From Daucus carota subsp. sativus (taxonomy: Eukaryota > Streptophyta > Magnoliopsida > Apiales > Apiaceae), in the NCBI RefSeq assembly GCF_001625215.2, contig NC_030386.2, forward strand, positions 38,629,296-38,693,295: 64,000 nucleotides of DNA. Reading direction: 5' to 3'. The notes under the pieces were generated by a model, which was not told the origin of the DNA, did not search any database, and worked only from the letters and a program-made list of their open reading frames with translations. Made by a program: the position numbers and the translations under genes. Of the stretch, positions 10,506-62,670 are shown one piece after another. The stretch's first letter is position 1, and each line of letters begins with the position of its first letter.

Positions 10506-13500
10506 ATGGCCAGTACAGTCTATCTGTTCTGTTTTTTGTTATATGTTACTCATCAGGTAGTAGCAGACTTTCATTCTCCGACGATCAAGTTCGTCCCTGG
10601 ATTCGAAGGACCCCTCCCTTTTCGTCTTCAAACAGGGTCAGCCACTGTGTGATTACGCGTTGCATGTTGCATGTTGATGAAATTATGTGATACTGGGAGC
10701 TTTTCTCATGATATTGATGATTTTCGTTTTTTCAGGTATGTCGGGGTAGATGAATCAGAGGATGTGCAGTTGTTCTATTATTTTGTCGAGTCTGAGAGAA
10801 ATCCTAAGGAGGATCCTGTTATTCTTTGGATGACCGGAGGCCCTGGCTGTTCTTCCTTCTCTGCTCTTGCTAGTGAAGTAGGTACAAAACTGATTTTTCC
10901 TGCCAAGACGCGTAATTAAAAATATACATATTTATTTAGTGTTTGATGCATGGACGGAACCAGGGGAGGCTAACCTGGTTGAGCAAGAAAAAATTGATTT
11001 TTTGTTTTCAGCCATCTTTTGTGCTTAAAAATCAACAGATTTTTTGTTTGAGCCCTAGCTAATTATGTAATTATGTAATACTAAGAACTTTTCTCATGAT
11101 AATGACGATGTTTGTATTTCAGGTATGTCGGGGTAGATGAATCAGAGGATGTGCAGTTGTTCTATTATTTTGTCGAGTCTGAGAGAAATCCTAAGGAGGA
11201 TCCTGTTATTCTTTGGATGACCGGAGGCCCTGGCTGTTCTTCCTTCTCTGCTCTTGCTAGTGAAGTAGGTACAAAACTGATTTTTCCTGCCAAGACGCGT
11301 AATTGAAAATATACATATTTATTTAGAGTTTGATGCAGGACAGAACCAGGGGAGGCTAACCTGGTTGAGCAAGAAAAAATTGATTTTTTGTTTTCAGCTT
11401 TTTTTGTACTTTACAAATCAAGATCCTCTGTTTGAGCCCTAGCTAATTGTTATAATGTGGCAAAGCTTACTTTATACCTACATTATGTTGCGTGAAATAA
11501 CCACTAGCCAGGAGCCTCCCAAATCCTCCTGTGTCGAAGCTTTTATGAAAGCTTTTATGATAATACAATGTGTAGTTAAATTCTGCTTAGGGCATAATAG
11601 CTGATGCTATGCCGCTGAGTTGCTGATCATATTCGTGCACAAGTTCAGGTCCAATATATTTTGAGCTGGTGATGTACGACGGGACTTTGCCTACCCTGGT
11701 CTTAAATCCAAACGCATGGACAAAGGTGGGGTTGCTTGTTCTCACTTATCATAGGACTGCTAAAATATGAGCAGCGCACATAAAGTTTCGCTTAAACAAT
11801 TTCTTCTGATGGCTTTCCTTCACAAGATTTAGTAGTTGAGATTTCACGAATCTCTACAAAATTAAACTATTTAGATTTCTTCTCTGGCCTTTTGATGATT
11901 GTGTTTGGTGTGATAGTCGAGTGCTTACTTGATATCTGCTAGACCACAGGTTCAAATTCGAAATTTGAAAGATAGTCTTGTGCACTAAACTTTAAAAAAG
12001 CCAAGCAAACTTCTAGATTTTAAGATTACATATACAACATTAACATAACTGATATGAGAACGGCATCTCACCTTTTTTGTAGATTGCTAGTATAATATTT
12101 TTGGACTTGCCAGTCGGTACTGGTTTCTCTTATGGCAGAACACCCTTTGCTTCTGGCTCGATTGACAGCCAAGCATGCGCTCAAGCTGTCCAGTTTCTAC
12201 GGAAGGTAAGGTATTTTCCATGGAAAGCTAGATTCTGCTCTTGTGTAAGTTGAAATGTGCATGTCATTTACCATGTATGATCTCTAATAGAAGAATTTCT
12301 CAGTGGTTTGTTAGTCATCCTGAATTCCTTTCAAATCCCTTCTATGTTGCTGGAGACTCTTACGCTGGAATATTTGTTGCAATTGTCACTCAAATGATCT
12401 CGAATGGTAAGCCTGCATCAGACTCTGGCAAAAAAAAACATTTGTAAAAGTTTAAGAATTTTTTATCACAAGTATCTGATCATTATGAATGTAGGAAACG
12501 AGGCAGGTTTTGAACCGTCCATTAATCTCAAGGTTTGTCAATTTTGTGACATATAATGATATTTACTCTGTGTCGAGATCTAGACTAGCAGAACTATCAG
12601 AATTTGTTATTATTCACAGTTGAAGCTGATCCCATTAATAGACTACATATTGAAAAAGTATTTCAGAAACTCAAGACAGTAAATTCCTCAAACATGGCAG
12701 GTTCCCATAGAATTAGAAGTTCTTTAATGTCTTAAAAACCAAACTGCAGAAAAATGGCCAAAAAATTGTAATTTGAGTGGGAACCATCCACAAAGTTCCT
12801 AACACTTGCTTCTGACGTGCGATTTCAGGGTTACTTAGCTGGCAATCCTATAACATATGCTGCTGAATCAAACTTTTCAATCCCCTTTTCTCATGGAATG
12901 GGACTTATATCAGATGAACTTTACGAGGTTGGCACAACTCCAGTTTTTAGCAATTATAAATGACAATAGCTTAATTATAACTTTGCCGATTACTAATATC
13001 AGTCACTGAGAAGGAGTTGTGGGTTCGATCATCTGAAATCAGACTCTGACAGTGCAGAATGTTCTCGTGGTTTAGAGGCTTTTGAGCAGGTTAGCTACTC
13101 ATACACATGTTCGGTGAATCTTGCCATCGTTGATGTTTATTATTATTTTTTTAAATATATATTCTTTGCAGTGTACCAATGGAATTAACAAGTACCACAT
13201 TTTGGAGAAAAATTGTCCCAGAGATGCACCTCAGCTGCGGAGATCATTGTCTAATGGAAAAAGAACTTTTACAGACAGATTTGAAGAGACATCACTTTCT
13301 GCAGTATCGGTATCTGATTGTAGTGTATGACCTCCTCCTTGGCTTGTATTTTCCTCTCACTCATTATCTAATTTAGTTTTTGCTCACTGTTTAGCACAAA
13401 AAGAAGACATCAGGATTTTGAGCAAACAATTGTTTTGCAGGTCGACGCGCGTTGGCTTTTTGGTCACTGGCTTAATGATGAACTAGTTCAAAATGCCCTG

Positions 13501-14236
13501 CATATCAGAAAGGTAAGATCCCCTGATATATTATTTAATACCAAAGAAAAATAGCATAAACAGAAACTTTCGTACAGGGGACCATAGGGACATGGGTGCG
13601 ATGCAACAGAGATAGCTTGGATTTTCAAATGATAATCACGGATGTTAGGGCATATCATGCTAATCTCAGCGCAAAGGGTTATAAATCTCTCATATACAGG
13701 TCGGTTCATTCGTTGTATATTACATTCTAACAAAGGCCATGAGCACACAGACAAACCTTTCTCGCAAATACACTTATTTTTTTTTACTGGTAATCCACAG
13801 TGGTGACCATGATTTTCTTGTGCCATTTCAATCTACTCAAGCTTGGATAAGAGATCTAAACTATTCTGTTATTGATGACTGGCGACCCTGGATTGTCGAA
13901 GGCCAATATGCTGGGTGGGTTTTGCGTTAAATGCTGCATCTATATATGATCAATGAGAACTTAGTAGATGTAAGTCAAGAAAGATTAATTTTGGTTCCGT
14001 GGCTTTGCAGTTACACGAGGGCTTACTCTAACAAAATGACATTTGCTACTGTGAAGGTAACAAATTTATCCGCTTTAGTCAACACATCAGCATTTCTTCG
14101 TTAATAATTTGTTTCATATAATTGATCCATGCATACTCTCTTTTTTCTTCAGGGGGGAGGTCATACAGCTCCAGAATACCGCCCTCCAGAATGTTATGCT
14201 ATGTTCGAAAGATGGATTTCAAATAAACCTCTATAA
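10506..14236 (+). CDS. Serine carboxypeptidase-like acyltransferase 1 (14 exons, 464 aa, duplicated exon 2)
   Basis: Exons: 10506-10636, 10736-10881 (or its copy 11123-11268), 11649-11725, 12083-12205, 12304-12406, 12495-12532, 12829-12927, 13003-13089, 13172-13324, 13441-13512, 13578-13699, 13801-13914, 14011-14056, 14153-14236. Using one copy of exon 2, the frame is open for 464 residues, the usual family size. A signal peptide covers about residues 1-20. Peptidase family S10 motifs are the oxyanion hole [10 protein letters not shown] (75-84), the nucleophile in GDSYAG (Ser178), the acid in GDHD (385-388, probably Asp388) and the base in GGGH (His441). N-glycosylation sites NFS and NYS are kept. 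Thr77 replaces the Asn of peptidases, so acyl transfer from a 1-O-glucose ester in the vacuole is inferred; the substrate is unknown. First gene of the five-gene array. Confidence 0.9.
10678..11451 (+). repeat. Tandem duplication (387-bp unit) containing exon 2 of SCPL gene 1
   Basis: Two head-to-tail units, about 10678-11064 and 11065-11451, offset by 387 bases. Each holds a complete exon 2 (10736-10881 and 11123-11268) with its own acceptor and GTACAAAA donor. The 146-base exons are identical, while the flanking intron sequence already carries substitutions and small indels, increasingly so away from the exon. Confidence 0.9.
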
Positions 14237-15050: not shown

Positions 15051-18000
15051 ATGGCACGTATCAGCAGTACAGCATATCAGTTGTGTTATTTGCTTGTTGT
15101 TACTGGAATCCTACAATGTATGTTCTCCCAGGTGGTTGCTGAAGACACTCATTCACCTGTGATCAAATTCCTCCCTGGTTTCCGAGGACCTCTCCCTTTT
15201 CGGTTTCAAACAGGGTCAGCAACTAGCCTATTGTGTGCGTGTGTTTTCATCCATTGCATGCTGATGTATTTTACTGTGAACTAGTCTGAGAAAGATGATG
15301 TTTGCACTGCCAGGTATGTGGGAGTAGGTGAATCAGAGGATGTGCAGCTGTTCTATTATTTTGTCGAGTCACAACGAAATCCTAGAGAGGATCCTCTTCT
15401 TCTTTGGATGACAGGAGGCCCTGGCTGTTCTTCCTTCACTGCATTAGCTTATCAGATAGGTATCTAGATGATTTTCTTCATATCTCAAATTCTCTTCTTA
15501 AAAAACGTACTGACTCTTCGCTTCATATCTAGAGTAATCAATTATTTAATTTGGCAATGTTAATTTATTTTGTAGGTCCTTTGAATTTTGAGCAAGAAAA
15601 ATACGATGGGACTTTTCCTACTCTTATTTTAAATCCGTACTCCTGGACAAAGGTGTGATTCGCGCATTAGATTTCTACCCATGTTTGTAGTAATTTAAAC
15701 TCCAAAAATTTCTTTAACAATCAAGTTATTTGATAATAGTTCTTTTCTGGCTAATTGATCTTTTGAAGAAATGCTTAATGTGATGCTTAAGTTTATAAAA
15801 ACTATCCATGAGTTAAAACCTTATGAAAGCATTTAAGTACAGTGGTTCTAATTTCTAATTACATCCGGTTGACAGAAGGTTAATCAGCCTCTCTTTTTTA
15901 AGTTCACATTTAATGATACTGTGCTTAAATTAACGAATAATTTACAGACCCCTGAACTCTTATGCTGTATATGTGAACTTTTACTGATGAGAATGGCAAT
16001 GCACGTTGTTTTTCAGAGAGCGAGTATTATATTTTTGGACTTTCCAGTTGGTACTGGCTTTTCCTATGGCAGAACAGCCACTGCTTCTCGCTCTACTGAC
16101 ACCCAAGCATATGCTCAAGTTTTTGAATTTTTAAGAAAGGTAAGGAGTCTGTTCTTGAAAACCTTGATTCTCCATCAAATACTAATTTAATAGAATTGTT
16201 TTGCAGTGGTTAGTTGGTCACAGTGAATTCCTTCTAAATCCATTCTATGTCGCGGGAGACTCTTTTGCTGGAGTATATGTTGCAGTTATCTCTCAAATGA
16301 TCTCAGATGGTAAGCTTGAATTTACTCTCATAAAGAAAACAGAAGAATCGTATCACTGTTTTTTTATACAATTTTTATCTTGATGTAGGAAATGAAGCAG
16401 GCCTTGAACCGTCTATTAATTTTAAGGTTTGTCAGTTTTGTGATACATAATTCTGTTTCAAGACGTAATACGTGCTTCTGATATGAAATTTCAGGGTTAC
16501 CTAGCAGGAAATCCAGTTACATTTCGCGCTGAGACAAACTTTTCAATTCCCTTTTCGCATGGAATGGGACTTATATCAGATGAACTTTATGAGGTCTTCT
16601 ACTCATCACAGCTCCAGATTATTGGATGAATGTATAAAAAATGTCAATAACATAATAAAACTTTACTGATTGCTTTATTAGTCACTGAGGAGAAGTTGTG
16701 GGTTGGATGATCAGAAAGCTGATCCTGACAGTGCAGAATGTTCACGCAGTTTAGAGACTTTCAATCAGGTTAGCTTATAATGCTTAAGTTTGGTAATACA
16801 TTGCAACTAATGTTAACAATTTCATATGTGCTTATGATTTCAGCTCACCGATGGTCTTAATCAGCAACAAATATTGGAAAAAGCCTGTGGCGAAGATTCA
16901 GTGCATGAGCCGCGTAGATCATTGTCTGATTGGAAAAGGGCAATTATAGATGGATCTGGAAAAACATTACTTGCAGAGACTGAGTGTCATGTATGCTTCC
17001 TCCTTGACTTGTACATTCTCACTTATAATAAAAATTAATGTATCCGAGGGTGAGGGTTTCAAGCCACGGCTGTCACCCCAAATCCCAGAACTATTATAAA
17101 ATTAGTAAAATTACATAGTAATAAAACTTCGCCTCCTCAAAATTAATATATGAAAATGCAGGTCGAAGCACGTCTGCTTTCTGTTTACTGGATAAATGAT
17201 GAGAGTGTTCAGAAAGCATTGCATATTAGAAAGGTACACCACCAGAGAAATATTTAACTTGATTAATTAGGAAATTAGAGTAAAGAGCAACTTTCATCCA
17301 GGGTACTGTAGGAACATGGGCAAGATGCAACCAGGATACTCTGGCTTTTGAAATTTCGGTTCTGGATGTTAGAGCATATCATGCAAATCTAAGCACAAAG
17401 GGTTATAGATCTCTTATATTCAGGTTGGTTCATACACTATACATGATATTTAACAAAAATGTCGGTCTTAACTAATTCGGGGAACTCCTGAAAACCAACT
17501 GTTCTGATATACTGAATACTTATCAGAGTATATGTACAGGCCTGGACTGAAAGTCTATATAATTAGTGCTGATATTTTACAAAATTACACCAAAAAGCTC
17601 TTGAAAGAAGTTAAATGTAAATCTCTCCATTCAAAAGAACTGATCGCGCACACCTAATTGATGTGTTTAATTATCAACAGTGGTGACCATGATTTTGTTG
17701 TACCATTTCTATCAACTCAAGCTTGGATAAGAGCGCTAAACTACTCTATTATCGACGAATGGAGGCAATGGATTGTTGAAGATCAAGTTGCAGGGTGGGT
17801 ATTCTGCCACTGCCTGTTAATTCTATATATGAGTATTCAATACCAAGTAGACCTACAATCAAGAATATTTGATTACGGTTATCTATGTTTTTGCAGTTAC
17901 ACAAGGACTTACTCGAACAAAATGACATTTGCTACTGTCAAGGCAAGATATCTCTCTGCTGTAGTCCATTCAATCAATACATCATTTTTCTCTCATTTGA

Positions 18001-29713: not shown

Positions 29714-32700
29714 ATGGGGAGTGTCTATCAAATCATTTTTGCAGTTTTTGTTACCGGAATCCTACTGAACCGGGTCTTTGCTGCAGACTCTTATTCACAA
29801 GTCAAGTTCCTCCCTGGTTTCAGAGGACCCCTCCCTTTTCGACTCGAGACTGGGTGAGCTTAAGGCTTAAGCTGCTGTGTGTTTTTATTTTATGCTTTGC
29901 ATGCTGATGTTTATGTTTTCTAAAGATGGTATTTGATTGTTTGTATTGTAAGATATGTGGGGGTTGATGAATCAGAGGATGTGCAGCTGTTCTATTATTT
30001 TGTCGAGTCGGAGAGAAATCCGAGAAAGGATCCTGTTATTCTTTGGATGACCGGAGGCCCTGGTTGTTCTTCCTTTACGGGCCTTGCTTATGAAATAGGT
30101 GCGTATCCGATCTATGTTCATTCATGTATGTTTGCATGAGAATTCATTCGGAGCAATATGTTTAAGTCACAATCGATGAAATTACATTTTTCTAATTCAT
30201 TGCAACTGATACGATAGACATCCTGTTTGACTTAGCTTAATTTTATAAATGAGAGATAACTTTTAATTTATGTGTTTAGATAAATATTTTGGTTTTTACA
30301 AATTATTGGATATAAAAATTAATAATATAACTATAAATTATTACAAATTATCTTTTAAAACGGTTTTGTAAAATCAAATTTCAAAAATAAAAATAAGTCA
30401 CTAAAAGAATGTAGGTTTTCAACTTCTTAGTTTCTCACGTAAAAACTATTTACACAAAGGATATGTATAAGATGATTCTGAACTTATAAGCCCATGAGTC
30501 AGGAAAAGAAACTAAAATAAACACCCTTAGTTTTTACCTCTTAACCTTTGATGTGAAACTTTTTCGAAATTTCCTGTTTGGGCAAATATCTTGATTCTTC
30601 ACATCCAATTGAGAGTTACACATTATTATATGTTGGCACAAAGCATATTGTAACAACCATTCATTTTGCAGGACCGGTAAATTTCGAGCAAGTGGAATAC
30701 AATGGGACTTTGCCTACTCTGGTCTATAATCCAAACACATGGACAAAGGTGTGTGCGCTTATATAATAATTGTAACTTCTCACTTGTCATAATATTGTTA
30801 TGGTATATGCAGAGATTTTCCGCAATGTTTTTAGTATTTTATATTCCAAAAATTTCTTTAGTAATATGTTATTTGGCAGTAGTTCTTCTATGGCTAGTTG
30901 ATCCTTTGAGTGTAATGTTTAGTGCAATGGTCAACTGCATACTAGCAATATTATGCACCGGTTGTCTGGGTTTTCTTTTCCTAATCTACATTTGGACAGT
31001 CTTCTGCGCCCATTTCTTTATCTTATTACTGGATTTCAAGTATTATGGTCGGAAATGGTAGATTAAAACTTCACAAAAACATTTGAATACAGAGGTTATA
31101 AGTTCGAATTACATCCAGTGGATATAGGACTACTGACCAAACTTGTAGGTTGGAAGGTCGATCAACCTTCCTCTTAACGCCGCGTTTGATGTTGATTGAA
31201 TGCACAAATTATATACTTGTATAGCTAATACTATGATATGCATGTTTTACTAATGAGAACGACAATGCACATTGTTTGCAGACATCGAGTATTATATTTT
31301 TAGACTTGCCAGTTGGTACTGGCTTTTCTTACAGCAGGACATCTGTTGCTTCTAGCTCTACTGACAGCCAAGCCTGTGATCAAGCTGTCCAGTTCTTAAG
31401 GAAGGTAATTAGTTTGTTTATGAAATGCTTGATTCCTCTCTTGTTAAAGATGCAATACACTGTGAACTTCATACATCGTATATAGTATTTATACTAAATT
31501 TTTTCACAGTGGTTAGTTGGTCATAGTGAATTCGTTTCAAATCCGTTATATGTTGGTGGTGACTCTTATGCTGGAATACTTGTTGCAATAATCACTCAAA
31601 TGATCTCAGATGGTAAGCTTGAATTATACTCTCATAAAGAACACATAAGAATTTGAGAGTTTTTTTCTTTATAACCTAATTGTTATCTTAATGTAGGAAT
31701 CGAAGCAGGCATTGAACCGTCTATTAATCTTAAGGTTTGTCAAAAAAAATTATATTTCTCTGTTTTAAGACCTAACCTGTGCTTCTGACATACAATTTCA
31801 GGGTTACCTAGCTGGAAATCCCTTTACATTCCCTGCGCAATCAAACTTTTCGATTTCTTTCGCTCACGGAATGGGACTTATATCGGATGAACTTTATGAG
31901 GTCTTATTCATCATAAATCATATTCAGAGTTTAGGATGACTGTGTGACAGTTATCAATAACATAATAAAAACTTTACTGATTACTGTACCAGTCATTGAG
32001 GAGAAGTTGTGGGTTGGATGAGCAGAAAGCAGATCCTGACACCGCAGAATGCTCACACGGTTTAGAGAATTTTAAGCAGGTAAGCTACTGATAATTAAGT
32101 TTGTAAATCTTTTGATGGTCTATGTTTATAACTAGATTGAAATCTACCACGTATATACCTTTGCAGCTTACCGATGGTCTTAATCAGCAACAAATTTTGG
32201 AGAATAATTGTGGTGAAGATTCACCACAGCTGCGTAGATCATTGTCTGGTGGAAAAAGGGCTGTTATGGCTGGATTTGGAGAGACATCACTTTCCGTGTT
32301 CAAGTGTCGTGTATGGCTTCCTCCTTGACTTAATTACTCCCACTTATTATAAGAAATTTAATGTACCAGAGGGAGTGGATGGCACACCAGGCCATTGCCC
32401 CAAAGTCCAATACTTTTTCAAGATTAGTATGGAAATATTTCCATCAAAATAACAACCAATGTGCAGACACTGCGAATTTATATCTATATACAATATAGTT
32501 TTTTTTTTTAATTTTCATAGAGCTATCTAAACTATTTTACTATCAATATGTGTAAAGTACGCTTCCATTTTGCAAAATGAACACATCAAGATTCTGAATA
32601 AGCAATGACAGTGCAGGTTGACGGACGTTGGCTTTCTGCTTATTGGTTCAACGATGCCAGTGTTCAGAGAGCATTACATATCAGAAAGGTACTCCCCCCG

Positions 32701-39769: not shown

Positions 39770-42700
39770 ATGGCAAGTGCAGTGTACCAAATATATGTTC
39801 TAATTCTTGTTACTGTAATAATTCAATACAAGTGGCCCCAGGTGATTGCTTCAGACACTCACTCGCCACTGATCAAGTTCCTCCCTGGTTTTCCAGGACC
39901 CCTGCCTTTCCAATTTCAGACAGGGTCAGCTACTGTGTGTGTGTGTGTGTTTTTTTTTTCGCGTTGCATGCTGATGGTTTTTGTATTTTAAGGTATGTGG
40001 GGGTAGATGAATCTGAGGATGTCCAGCTGTTCTATTATTTTGTGGAGTCCGAGAGAAATCCTAGAGAGGATCCTCTGCTTCTTTGGTTGACTGGAGGCCC
40101 TGGTTGTTCTTCATTTTGTGGCTTTGCTCTTGGAATTGGTAAGTCGCTTTTATGTAGACATGACAGTTTGGTACACGACACAAAATTACGGGTATGAATT
40201 TGGAAAAATAGCCATAAATAAATTACCCTTGTGATTTTGTAATGGATGCAAAATAGAAACATCTTTGATATCAAGTTAATAGACTATAAGACTTGATCAT
40301 GGCAGTTTGTGGTGGTTTATAGAGTCTTCCCCCATCAATTGGACCTAAAATTAGATTTATTGAATTTCGCTATGTTCTAATACTAATGTGGCTCTACTGC
40401 TTAGTACTTTTAAAATTTGGCTATGCTGCTGGGCACTCATACATAATTGCAGGTCCACTATATTTTGAAGAGGTTGTGTACAATGGGACTTTGCCTACCC
40501 TGTTCATGAATCCCAACAGATGGACAAAGGTGTGTATGCTTATGAGTTAAATATATCTCCCTACTTGCTAAAATACCTTCATAATGGTATTCACATGAAC
40601 ATTAAGGTTCGTATATGATGTCCCTAGATCTCAAGATTTTGTAATTTTACCGTCATGATGCAATTCAAATTGTTTGTAGGTAGCTAGTGTAATATTTTTG
40701 GACTTTCCAGTCGGTACTGGTTTTTCTTACGGCAGGACACCCTTTGCTTCTGGTTCTACTGATGACCAAGCATGTTCTCAAGCTGCCCAGTTCCTGAGGA
40801 AGGTACAGAATTTGTTCATAGAAGCACGATTTTCTTCTTGTGAAGGTGAAATATATATACTTAAAATATGGAGTAAACTTCAGAGTTTTGACCAAAATTT
40901 ATATCGATTTTCGAAAAATTGATCAGATTTCCAAATTCTCACAAACGTAACCAAAACATTGTCTCCGCTTTTTAAAAAACTCCCGTTAAATATAACTAAC
41001 AGCAGAGGGGTAAAAACCAAAATGTATATTTGGGCGGAACACCCCCACCCACCACCACACCCAACACACCCATGGGTCTTCTTTCCCCCTGTTCTATTAA
41101 TACCGCCGTGGAGCCGCCCAACCACGACTACAACTCCAACCACCACTACAACTCCGGCCACCCCTCTGGACCTGTAAATTGGCTCCTTTAAGGACTTGGA
41201 TTCGGCAATTAAACAATTGCGTGCGACATTATCGGAAGAATTGACACTTGGCTTTATAATTCTTGGTGAGCATATGGGGTGACACTTGGCTTTATAATTC
41301 TTGGTGAGCATATGGGGTGTTTGTATTTTAAAGAAAAGGGTTTGTGTTTTCTTGAATCTTGATTTCTGGGGTTTGTTTGTATATGTTTGTTCATACATAT
41401 TGAGGGGATTGAAGATGAAGGGGGAGTTAACAGTGGCGTGAGGGAGCCTTGGTTGGAGATGGGTAGTTAGCTGGGGGCGGCGGGTTAGAGAGAGGGAGGG
41501 TGAGAGAAGGGAGAGAAATAAGGGTAGTTCTGTAACTTCATAGATATTAGACTTAAATATTTTTTAACAAATCGCAATTATATCATTTAATTTTAGGATT
41601 TTAATGGCACGTCAAGGGGAGTCACTTTTTTAAAATGCGGAGACAAAATTTAGCAACCTTTCTAAAAATTTGGAAACCCAACTTTGGCCACAACTTTTAT
41701 GTTTACTCTAAAATATGTGTTACTAGGGTTGTTTACATAGATTTTCAGGATCTAAATATAGATACATGTTTTTTTTTGCATCGTTGTGTGTGTTAAAAAA
41801 TAATTTCAAAAAATAATACATAAATTAAGACTTTTTTTTCATGTGCAATTCTGCTGAAGAACCCTAATTAATACGGGAAATAAGCTAATTGTTCTAAGGT
41901 TTTTATGGCTCATGGTTCTATGTGGACCTTATATCACCAATCTAAGTACTTTACTAACTATGATTTCTAATAGAAGTATTTGACAGTGGTTTGTCAGTCA
42001 TCCTGAATTCCTCTCAAATCCCTTTTATGTTGCCGGAGACTCTTATGCTGGAATGTTTATTCCAGTTATCACTCAAATAATTTCAAATGGTAAGAGTGCA
42101 TTCTATTCGACTAAAAGCACCTAAGTTCATTTATACAATGGTCTAACTGTCATATTAATGTAGGAAACCAAGCAGGCCTTAAACCCGCTATCAATCTTAA
42201 GGTTTGTCAATACTAATCCCATTCATTGACTTCATCAATACTGTAAGTTATATTGGAAACTTTAGTGATGTAGCACGAACTGAATCAGAGATTGAACAAG
42301 ATGAATGATTAATGAACACTTGGTGATTGAATCACAATCTATTTACTATCCCAAGGAAATGAGCTTCCTAACTTGTGCTTCTGCCACGCAATTTCAGGGT
42401 TACATAGCTGGAAATCCAGCGACATTCCCTGCTCAGTTGAACTTTACAATCCCTTTTTCTCATGGAATGGGACTAATATCTGATGAACTTTTTGAGGTAA
42501 GTACAAACTTATCAGAACTCCAGATTCTTAGATGAACATAAATGTCAATAGCTTATTAATAACTTTACCAAGTACTATTTTAGTCATTGAGGAGAAGTTG
42601 TGGGTTCGACGATCAGAAACCAGATCCTGACAGTGCAGAATGTTCACTTAGTTTAGAAGCTTTCGAGCAGGTTAGCTCCATCTGCTTAGGTTCGCTAAAT

Positions 42701-54245: not shown

Positions 54246-54626
54246 TAGTAATTTAGTATGCCACCATGGGGATAAGAAAGCCCAGTCCGGCCAGGGCCTC
54301 TAACAGTCCAGTATGTTTGTGTAGGGCCTGGCAGGTCCGGTATTGGTCTGAGTAAAAGCCCAACGGGAGTTGCTCGATTGGGTTTAACAGGAAAGAGTCA
54401 AAAGACCAAGTGGATAATAAGTATAATTAGAAACCACAATTTTGTGAACCCAAACTTCAATACAGAAGGCCCAAGCCAGGCCCATCGGAATATCCACCAG
54501 CACCTTCTAACCAGCAAAAACATTCAAACTCAAAAAACATATACATACACACAACATTTCACAAATGTATCTATCACCCGCTTGATCAATCTCAAATCAC
54601 ACCATTCCCATATCAAATCCCCCACC

Positions 54627-56911
54627 ATGACCACCCAAAACGACGCCGTTCCCATCGCCTTCCCCGATTTCCCCGAAGACGTGCAACTCACCATCCTCTC
54701 CTTCCTCAACCAATCAGAAATCTCCACGTTTTCCTGCACCTCCAAGCGCTTCTACTCCCTCTGCAACAACGATTCCAAGCTCTGGTTCTCTCTGTGCGAC
54801 CGCAAGTTCGGGTCGAAGACCCGGATCAAGAAATGGGTCACGGGTCAAATCACTTACAAGCGATTGTACAAAACTTTGTGTGAGTTAGAGGGGCTGATTG
54901 GGTTCTGGAGGAGGAGTGGGCAGAGCAAGAATTGTGGGTCCCCTGGGAATGTGGGTGATCAGACGCCGGCCCTTGTGTATTTTCAGTGGGGGGATTGTTT
55001 TATCTCGGGGTGTCGAGTTTCGGGTTCGAGGGAGGGAGGTTATGATGTTGTCAAGAGGCCTTGTTTCTGGATTTGTTTGAATTCGGAAGGGGAATGTGTG
55101 AGTTTCCTTGATCCCAATTGTCGGGTTGAGGGGTTCGAAGAGTTGGTGGCCAAATGCGATGATTTGGGGTTTGTGGAGAATGAATTGATCCCGGTGAATG
55201 TGAATTTTATGGGGGGTGGGCATGTGGTTGTGGAGGAGAATGTGAATTATGTGAGTTCGAGCGGTTCGGGGGAGATTAGGAAGAGTGGTGTTGTGAAAGT
55301 GGGGAGTCCGAGAGGAGAGGAGGGTGATGAGGGGGTGGAGAATGTGATTGGGTCTCCGGTTATGTCAGATATGTATCAGTATTTTGCGAATAGGACGAGT
55401 CCGGGGGCGGGAGGGGAGAGGTGGTCTAGGAGGCAGAGGAGGAGGGAGAAGGTCAAGAAGTGTTGGAAGAAGTGGGAGCCTGAGCATTATGTCAAGATTG
55501 TTAATTGTTCGCCTACGCCTGCAAGGCCTTTGCAGGGTCTTTGGAAGGTGATCTTCTTAAACTTTTGCAACCGTGTAGTGTAACTGTTTTATGATTGTTG
55601 ATTTTACATTGGATAGTGGTTAAAGCATGAATCTTTGCAATTACTAAAACAAACTAAATATCTCATTGACCTTGGGTTGTACTTGTAGTTTCTAATAGGA
55701 TATAAGATTTCACCTATTCCTAAATACTCATTATTTATTCGACAGAGGACTTACATTTGACGTAGGAATATAGGCTTTTAAAGCTATTAAAATTATGGTG
55801 GAGCTAGTTTGAGGTTTAGGTTTAGTTATGCAATTGCTGGCAATATTACCTTGTCTCGCTGATTACCTCTCCTTGTTCCGTCCAATATTTTATTAGGGAG
55901 ATAAAGATGCTAGACTTCATTGCTTTCTTTATCAATAGGGAAAGAAAAGGAAAATGACTCAAATATGAAGGCTCACCTGTTTATTTGGGTTAGTCTGTCC
56001 ATGTAGTAACCAGTTAGACAGGTTTTTATGTTGTATTAAGTATATGTGAGTTCTGCACGGTTGCATATTTCTAGGTGATAGAACTTTGTTACAAGTCTAC
56101 TGTTTAATTTTTATACAAATGGCTATGTTATGTTAATGTATTATTAGTTCATGAATTCACAAGGTTGTGGCCTTGAGATTAGTATCTTCACAATGGTATG
56201 TGTTTTCAAGTTTCAGCCCTTTATCTTGAAAAGAGTATATGTGTACAATACAACTATTTGCTAAAGCTATGTCAGAACGCATATAGCGGAGCTTGTTTAC
56301 AAAACATTTGTTAGGTCAAACTATGCAAGTATACCGTGATTGCTCTGGCACTTGCCCCCTTACTCTGCAACTTTAAATAGTATCTTAAAATATGATAATG
56401 GGAAACAGTGGTGGCTGATAGATAAATCAGTGTTTGCAGCCTATTTGATCGGTTCTACTTGTGGGTGCAGGGAATTTGTGATGACATGAAACTTGATTTT
56501 TATTTGGTGGCTTATGACGACATTGGTGGTATTGCTTGTCGGAGGGTTGAGGATTCGTCTAAACCTTTCTCTGGCTATGCACCAGTGTTTTGGACATCAA
56601 ACACCACATTCATCGAGTCTCCTTTTTCGCCAGAAGAAAATTACATATATGACAGTCGCACACATCTTAGGCCACCTGATGCGTCAGACTGTATACATGG
56701 AGATGAAGCAGTGGCACGCATTCTGTACATCAACTCAAGCTATGATCTGGTCATCCCGGATTTAGCAGAGACTTCTGTGAATCCTCGGCAGGTGGAGGGA
56801 AGAATTTGGCAGTATGGCAATGGAACATTTGGTTTTGGGTTTCTTCGTGATAATCACATCGTAGACCTTAAGCTTATTACTAGGAATGATCATCTCTTAG
56901 ATACCAGTTAA
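54627..56911 (+). CDS. F-box protein, 453 aa, two exons
   Basis: Exons 54627-55547 (307 codons) and 56471-56911 (146 codons plus stop), phase 0, with a GT-AG intron of 923 bases. The F-box lies at about residues 12-55 (FPEDVQLTILSFLNQSEIST, then CTSKRFYSLC and W of KLWFSLC). F-box proteins are substrate receptors of SCF ubiquitin ligases. Downstream, LIGFWRRSG, YFQWGDCFISG, MSDMYQYFANRTSPG and a basic RRQRRREK stretch lead into a conserved C-terminal domain, VKIVNCSPTPARPLQGLWKG, followed by FYLVAYDDIGGIACRR and PVFWTSNTTFIESPF. This matches my memory of Arabidopsis At3g12350, a single-copy-type plant F-box protein of unknown target. The ATG at 54627 (CACCATGA) is preferred over the longer upstream frame, which reads leader-like sequence. 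Exon 1 is markedly GC-rich. Confidence 0.88.
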
Positions 56912-57967
56912 TGTTGTAAAGATTATTAGTTTGTTTCTTTCTGTTGGACATTGTTGTTGTACAAAAAGGTTGTGGCACTTGCCACATCCGTGCACAGATC
57001 TCTTCTGCATGTTCAAAAATAATAAATGTTTCCTTTTCTTTTGTATCTCTACTATTTGGACGACTTTTATGTTAATTCAGTCACTCATTAAGATGTTCTG
57101 TTGCGGAAACTGACCAGGATATTGTACACCTGGAAAAGTTTTATCGATGTACGAACAGGGGATATAAGGTCTTCATGTTGCTATATGGTCAATGAGTCTA
57201 AAGGTCTATTTTGATATTCCAGGTAGTTACCAGTGCGATGTTGATTCGTGAGAAAGAAATCAGAACCACATTCTCCGGATTCTGTTGCGAGTCCGACATA
57301 ACTCTGGACAACACTATATTGAGTATTGATGCTAAAGCAGCTCCAGTGGTTAGGAGTTGCTATTAAGCTAACTTGGAGAATCATATTGAAAGAAGTGTTA
57401 TTCTTTTAGTTTTTCCATAGAAAATTTCTCTGGAGAATTGAAGGACTAATTAAGGTCTTTTAGTTTTTCCATAGAAGATTTCTCTGGAGAATTGAAGGAC
57501 TACTTCAGGTTTTCATCCTACGTCTAATATGTTACGTTCTAAGTACATTTTTCTGAATCTACTCTGTTCTCTGAATCTACTTTCTGAATCTAAAGAAACT
57601 GGAAAAAAAAATGAATCGGCCAAAAACGACGACACGCTGTTCAGAGGGACAAGAAATACTACTAATATTCAAATATCTTTCTGTTATTGTATATAGGCAC
57701 GGCAGCAAATAAACAATGAAACTGGTTCATGAGTCACCATATTAATAATCAAGCATCCAACTCCAGAGTACATCTCAAGTTCACTAAATCAAACGAAGAA
57801 TAACAGGAGAAGCTCCACACAATTCAGAGCATTTTATCTTCAAGCGGAAAACCAACCAATTTTAGTGCAGAAAGGTCTAGATAAGTAAAACGGACTGAAT
57901 TGCTATTACAAAGGATCAAGATGATAAAACTGTGCCAAAATGAGAACCAAACAATGTCGCGGGTGAA
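56912..57967. other. Convergent 3' flanks of the F-box and WLIM1 genes
   Basis: No gene is seen. A 54-bp tandem duplication at 57402-57509 is listed separately. Confidence 0.6.
57402..57509. repeat. 54-bp tandem duplication
   Basis: Two adjacent units, 57402-57455 and 57456-57509, each starting TCTTTTAGTTTTTCCATAGA and containing CTCTGGAGAATTGAAGGACTA, differ at only a few positions. Confidence 0.9.
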
Positions 57968-62383: not shown

Positions 62384-62670
62384 GTTTGGGTGAGCTTAAA
62401 ATAAGTGCTTCTTACTTAAAATAAATAAGTGGAGTAGAAGTTAGAAGCAAGATAAGACTTATAAGTGATTAAAGTATGGAGTAGAAGTTAGAAGCAAAAT
62501 AAGACTTATAAGTGATTAAAATGTTTGGGAAATAAGTAGAAGCCTTAAAACAAAAGCTAGCATTCCTAACTTTTTATAAGTGCTTCTTGACTTATTACAC
62601 AAACAGTACGAATAAGTGCTCATAATTTATAATTCAGAAGATGGATTTATAAATCCTAAACAAATACCCA
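62384..62670. mobile_element. MITE copy 4 of the CTTATAAGT-rich family (inverse orientation)
   Basis: It starts AGGGATTGTTTGGG and ends with AAACAAATACCC. It contains an internal duplication of GTAGAAGTTAGAAGCAA, ATAAGACTTATAAGTGATTAAA, and GTGCTTCTTGACTTATTACA shared with the other copies. Confidence 0.65.

Follow-up and report, generated by a model that had tools for sequence, protein, structure and literature searches.

A documented case of mutually exclusive exons in plants that is close to ours is FLM/MAF1 (AT1G77080), where adjacent alternative exons are used one per mRNA, according to the passages of the source cited here (PMC3266260). The FLM exons encode different segments of the I-domain (19 AA in the 5' exon, 15 AA in the 3' exon) and thereby switch interaction motifs, whereas 2A and 2B, the two copies of exon 2 in the carrot SCPL gene described here, encode the same peptide. 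Tandem exon duplication with use of one copy also characterizes the animal tandem duplicated exon substitution events, which give distinct homologous peptides and are mostly ancient, as portrayed in the cited parts of two reports (PMC9741552, PMC9013439); the carrot pair, in contrast, is identical and known from sequence alone. Exon pairs of the FGFR2 IIIb/IIIc type illustrate a known principle, set out in the relevant section of the source, by which double inclusion breaks the frame and the resulting mRNA is removed by decay (PMC6071210). The carrot exons share the broken frame, but their copies offer no choice between different products, and this case too has been read off the genome only. 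A further likeness is to the annotated recursive-splicing (RS) exons of human cells, whose first bases restore a good 5' splice site upon joining, again following the portion of the source cited (PMC6224609). Unlike the human RS-exons that are repressed by the exon junction complex (EJC), the carrot exon is tandemly duplicated, resides in a plant, and its recursive use is putative. In the same species, DcSCPL1 functions in anthocyanin acylation, and the cited part of its description reports an insertion that causes exon 3 skipping and affects pigment acylation (PMC7005140). Our gene resembles DcSCPL1 in its 14 exons, its 77-bp exon 3 and its protein domain, but DcSCPL1 lies on chromosome 3, and its splice defect, as given in that part, is the skipping of exon 3 and not an exon duplication. 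In the openly licensed PMC literature, 'exon duplication' and 'SCPL' were combined in 0 papers, and among the matches listed from openly licensed literature none joined recursive splicing with plant exon duplication. The carrot exon 2 pair appears to be an unusual case of a known phenomenon, in that its copies are identical and no protein diversity would be gained. Identical duplicate exons that break the frame provide a clean natural experiment in exon choice: because either copy yields the same protein, any bias between them should reflect pure splicing mechanics, namely position, acceptor strength and order of removal.

The window, that is, the whole 64,000-nucleotide stretch of carrot DNA analyzed here, belongs to contig C6 of the searched genome (441 Mb, 11 contigs) and harbors five clustered SCPL genes whose 14-exon models are complete. 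Gene 1 (10506-14236; the gene and all features given for it are on the + strand) has a 464-codon ORF when one exon 2 copy is used, and all 13 introns of this model are GT-AG. Exon 1 (10506..10636) contains the start codon, encodes an N-terminus that is hydrophobic as judged by eye, and ends in the donor AGG/GTCAGC, which ranks at the 67th percentile among 116 family donors. It is followed by exon 2A (10736..10881, 146 bp), encoding ...GGPGCSS...SEV, by exon 2B (11123..11268, 146 bp), by exon 3 (11649..11725, 77 bp) and by exons 4-14 (12083..14236), which are open in frame to a TAA and encode GDSYAG, GDHDF and GGGHTAP. The predicted product is an SCPL protein, matching the Peptidase_S10 profile (PF00450) with an E of 9.7e-125 over positions 1-420 of 420 and carrying GGPGCSS at 78, GDSYAG at 176, GDHDF at 385 and GGGHTAP at 438, motifs that we take to represent the oxyanion hole and the catalytic Ser, Asp and His. 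By analogy to DcSCPL1, gene 1 is a candidate clade IA acyltransferase, the likeness in this respect consisting only of the 14-exon structure. Comparison with six paralogues gave dN/dS values of 0.235-0.318, which reflect long-term constraint on gene 1, mostly from the time before the duplication. Genes 2-5 follow in tandem (15051-45033; model starts at 15051, 20445, 29714 and 39770), each having an open frame and just one exon 2 of 146 bp. Three other SCPL loci, L040-L042, lie in a row on contig C3 at 11.67-11.70 Mb and, judging from their number and place, probably correspond to the DcSCPL1-3 cluster described for chromosome 3 of carrot.

The anatomy of the duplication is directly visible in gene 1. 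The first copy of the duplicated unit (10677..11064) comprises the end of intron 1, exon 2A and the start of the next intron, the second copy (11065..11448) holds exon 2B, and the middle intron between the two exons measures 241 nt (10882..11122). As a preliminary description of this DNA had stated, exon 2 occurs twice with its own AG and GT at each copy, and the copies are identical at 146/146 bases, while the flanking introns have diverged: the intron parts of the two units differ by 20 substitutions in 237 aligned bases (8.4%) and by 5 indel events, which makes 25 difference events in total. The identity spills over the exon borders, taking in 6 nt of the upstream intron and 36 nt of the downstream one and giving an identical tract of 188 nt (10730..10917 = 11117..11304), 42 nt of it intronic. 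When the differing columns were placed at random over the whole alignment, a 188-nt identical run was reached in 0 of 100000 placements; for synonymous exon and intron sites alone (269.7 sites), 25 events leave a gap of such width with a P of 0.007, in a test chosen after the data had been seen. The same description had left constraint and gene conversion side by side as causes of the identity. Conversion fits better, and we regard the 188 nt as a putative conversion tract arising from later exchange, whereas protein selection alone fails because the synonymous sites and the 42 nt of intron are identical as well. The fairly low synonymous divergence of exon 2 between paralogues (pooled 0.34, with a range over exons of 0.25-0.62) needs no exon-wide peculiarity, since that of exon 5 is lower still (0.25). 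Paralogue introns did not polarize copy A against copy B, the flanks of the 12 other loci being too diverged and matches to A and B mixed. A genome-wide search with the middle intron returned 3 matches, two of them the copies themselves, and it is not a widely dispersed repeat. At a mutation rate of 7e-9 per site per year, the intron divergence corresponds to about 6 My (3.8-10 My), on the premise that it began at duplication, which suggests that the event is some millions of years old. The duplication had been called very recent; introns differing by 8.4% do not support this, unless the copies derive from already diverged haplotypes. Unequal crossing-over between two such haplotypes could make the event recent, and the intact frame would then be little informative.

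The frame logic follows directly from the codons. With exon 1 and both copies included, the message reads ...SEVGMSG-stop and ends after 96 aa, and the codon string GGT ATG TCG GGG TAG proposed for this junction is exact. Joining exon 1 to exon 3 with neither copy likewise breaks the frame and leads to an early stop. We enumerated splice paths across 10.6-11.65 kb, admitting GT/AG sites scoring at least 2.0, at most two internal exons and introns of at least 60 nt, and 4 of 200 paths stay open. These are 1-2A-3 and 1-2B-3, the only ones with a complete exon 2, and two paths that rely on sites with scores near 2.0 and lack the beginning of exon 2. None of the 200 enumerated paths retains both copies via alternative sites and yet stays open. 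Within the limits of the enumeration, the assertion that one copy must be skipped is thus borne out. Both intron copies also contain a decoy acceptor, TTTTTTGTTTTCAG (10997-11011 and 11383-11397), inside a 55-nt identical run. It scores 8.3 at 11012 and 8.6 at 11398, versus 6.1 for the exon 3 acceptor, and could further reduce the output of gene 1. No decoy acceptor appears in the open paths, a result that bears mainly on the one at 11012, since the one at 11398 has no above-threshold donor before exon 3.

Exons 2A and 2B share several features of a mutually exclusive pair, being adjacent homologous exons with their own splice sites and equal phase, whose double inclusion breaks the frame. The label 'mutually exclusive splicing' is overstated: the frame logic defines the productive mRNAs and says nothing of regulation, the peptide is the same from either copy, and the sequence showed no enforcing device, although a recursive-splicing route is possible. 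No steric block of the kind imposed by very short middle introns applies here: this intron has 241 nt and exceeds 10 of the 13 other introns of the gene, those 10 spanning 65-116 nt. Comparison with the U12 consensus argues against U2/U12 incompatibility, both copies having the same GT-AG type of sites. A 21-nt arm at 11413-11433 is 76% complementary to, and can pair with, either exon copy. This is the geometry of competing selectors, but the pairing is weak and its partner lies inside the exon, making the arm a weak candidate for a competing RNA structure. The region folds somewhat more stably than its shuffles (z -2.29, 1 of 20 shuffles being as stable). Selector/docking complementarity consists of three weak inverted repeats, one of them a palindrome and one supplying the arm after exon 2B; these are too weak to carry the case, although a role for competing structure is possible.

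Splice-site strengths point to a simpler mode of exon choice. Acceptor 2A scores 11.6 (89th percentile of 112 family acceptors) and acceptor 2B, with a poorer pyrimidine tract, 9.2 (62nd percentile). The exon 2 donor, TAG/GTACAA in both copies, scores 4.34 and ranks at the 5th percentile of 116 family donors, a weakness that should favor skipping. Given good acceptors and a donor that is weak and identical, the default should therefore be a competition that skips a copy in part of the transcripts and wastes those that carry both. In the account that we favor, with moderate confidence, the SCPL gene was functional when a tandem duplication copied a segment of about 388 bp containing its exon 2, the central parts of the copies were later homogenized, most likely by gene conversion, and both exon copies kept usable splice sites. 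Splicing would then be a largely unregulated competition, with some transcripts joined as 1-2A-3 or 1-2B-3, and these single-copy transcripts alone would encode the complete 464-aa enzyme. Double-copy transcripts, having a stop after 96 codons and twelve exon junctions downstream, would be expected to enter nonsense-mediated decay. As a result, the gene would make a single protein in lower amounts, which might be tunable. A gene that lost its function at the duplication should by now have collected about 2.9 stops and 2.3 losses of splice dinucleotides, an expectation that presumes the age given above and excludes indels, for which the intron indel rate is a poor guide; 0 were observed (P about 0.005, spanning 0.0002-0.045 when the intron count is moved over its 95% limits). 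The remaining frame and the splice dinucleotides have stayed intact, an argument that the gene does produce single-copy mRNAs.

Exon 2 has a second property that bears on how one copy might be lost. Its first bases, GTATGT, directly follow the acceptor AG, which creates an acceptor-fused donor-like site, CAG/GTATGT, at exon 2A (10733..10741, a putative recursive-splicing site) and at exon 2B (11120..11128). With a score of 11.0 at both copies, it is the joint strongest donor-like site of the scanned interval. Upon joining, the exon 1-2 junction regenerates AGG/GTATGT (10.19) and the 2A-2B junction TAG/GTATGT (9.58), compared to 4.34 for the exon's own donor. As in RS-exons, the regenerated 5' splice site exceeds the 10th percentile of real donors (10.2 versus 5.21), where threshold and scoring matrix derive from the 116 donors of the SCPL family and are not genome-wide. 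Above-threshold regenerated donors occur at 11 of 123 exon-exon junctions of the family, comprising 10 of the 11 exon 1-2 junctions as opposed to 1 of the 112 others (Fisher P 8e-13, with counts that are not independent because the genes are related). The regenerated site outscores the exon's own donor in 9 of the 10 genes, among them gene 1. The exception among the 11 exon 1-2 junctions is gene 4, in which exon 2 starts with ATATGT; this start (29953-29958) is the sole one among 13 loci without GT and regenerates no donor. Exon 2 of the examined carrot SCPL loci can thus be considered a putative recursive-splicing exon, and the sole exon that is regularly so. The only duplicated exon among the 136 tested is also of this RS type. 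New here, beyond the preliminary description, is that exon 2, alone among the exons of the loci examined, regularly regenerates a strong 5' splice site on joining its predecessor, a feature that opens a testable way of losing one copy.

According to this alternative, recursive splicing would collapse the pair stepwise to a single exon 2, either by reuse of the exon 1-2A junction AGG/GTATGT, splicing 2A out onto 2B, or by reuse of the 2A-2B junction TAG/GTATGT, removing 2B. Its appeal lies in the regenerated donors (10.19 and 9.58) that beat exon 2's own, in the top rank of CAG/GTATGT, and in the confinement of the property, as a rule, to exon 2. Donor competition governs RS-exon inclusion in Drosophila Bx (PMC8605326), and in human cells the exon junction complex represses recursion on annotated RS-exons (PMC6224609), both in the sections cited. 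We nevertheless consider recursion unlikely. The same regenerated donor is present in the single-exon-2 paralogues, where it beats the own donor in 8 of 9 and must be mostly repressed, suggesting that it is largely silent there. GTATGT is, in addition, dictated largely by Gly-Tyr-Val coding, and selection need not be invoked for it. Independent loss of each copy, with chance p, would leave 2p(1-p) of the mRNA productive, at most 50%. For plants, the cited literature describes recursive splicing only as a proposed model for micro-exons (PMC4674806). The stronger proposition, that recursion at AGG/GTATGT or TAG/GTATGT in a tandemly duplicated RS-exon excludes one copy without regulators, selectors or steric limits, is more doubtful still; if true, the six bases that open the exon would by themselves supply mutual exclusion.

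It is equally unlikely, in our view, that one copy is virtually never used, for example because 2B is skipped, and that the gene behaves as one with a single exon 2. The difference between acceptors 2A and 2B (11.6 versus 9.2) and the intact frame of gene 1 would agree with such behavior, but both acceptors lie well inside the family range, the donors are identical, the 2B acceptor beats that of exon 3 (6.1), and neither copy bears a sequence mark of death. Improbable, to a slightly greater degree, is a recent crippling of the gene, in which nearly all mRNA would contain both copies and the locus, in a family with many further members, would be a functional null whose frame has had too little time to decay. 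Double inclusion is the expected splicing default, and two good exons 241 nt apart would be included together, leaving the gene mostly unproductive, a point that also weighs against the account favored above. The four other complete 14-exon models in the cluster and the 188-nt identical tract are compatible with such a loss. An intron divergence of 8.4% with zero disabling changes speaks against it, if the introns date the event. An assembly artefact or collapsed haplotypes are very unlikely: although assemblers can duplicate sequence of the type represented by the identical exon copies, 25 difference events separate the units, which in any case argues against an echo produced by the assembler. 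The searched genome matches the carrot DH1 v3 assembly (440.7 Mb in nine chromosomes), which was built from a doubled haploid with PacBio and Nanopore reads, as stated in the cited part of its report (PMC10581907), and a segment of the carrot pectinesterase 1gq8 (PDB) matches at 98% over residues 2-217 of 217. If the present assembly is DH1 v3, a juxtaposition of two haplotypes is excluded because the source was a doubled haploid.

Competition between two retained copies, our preferred reading, concerns an exon pair that stands alone in the surveyed family. No further duplicated exon besides exon 2 was detected among 136 exons of 13 loci (blastn E 1e-3, plus strand), a survey that may have overlooked very short exons and in which gene models are incomplete at 6 of the 13 loci. 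Likewise, among the matches listed (at least 157, with 100 of 336 candidates scored) no other exon-2-type pair lay closer than about 4.2 kb. The exon 2 duplication was absent from the output of Tandem Repeats Finder. Elsewhere in the window we noted a perfect 38-bp tandem repeat of 2.1 copies (41242-41319), near-perfect repeat pairs at 57402-57510 (54 bp) and 62430-62520 (47 bp), and, at 54468-55580, an ORF with an F-box domain (PF12937, PF00646).
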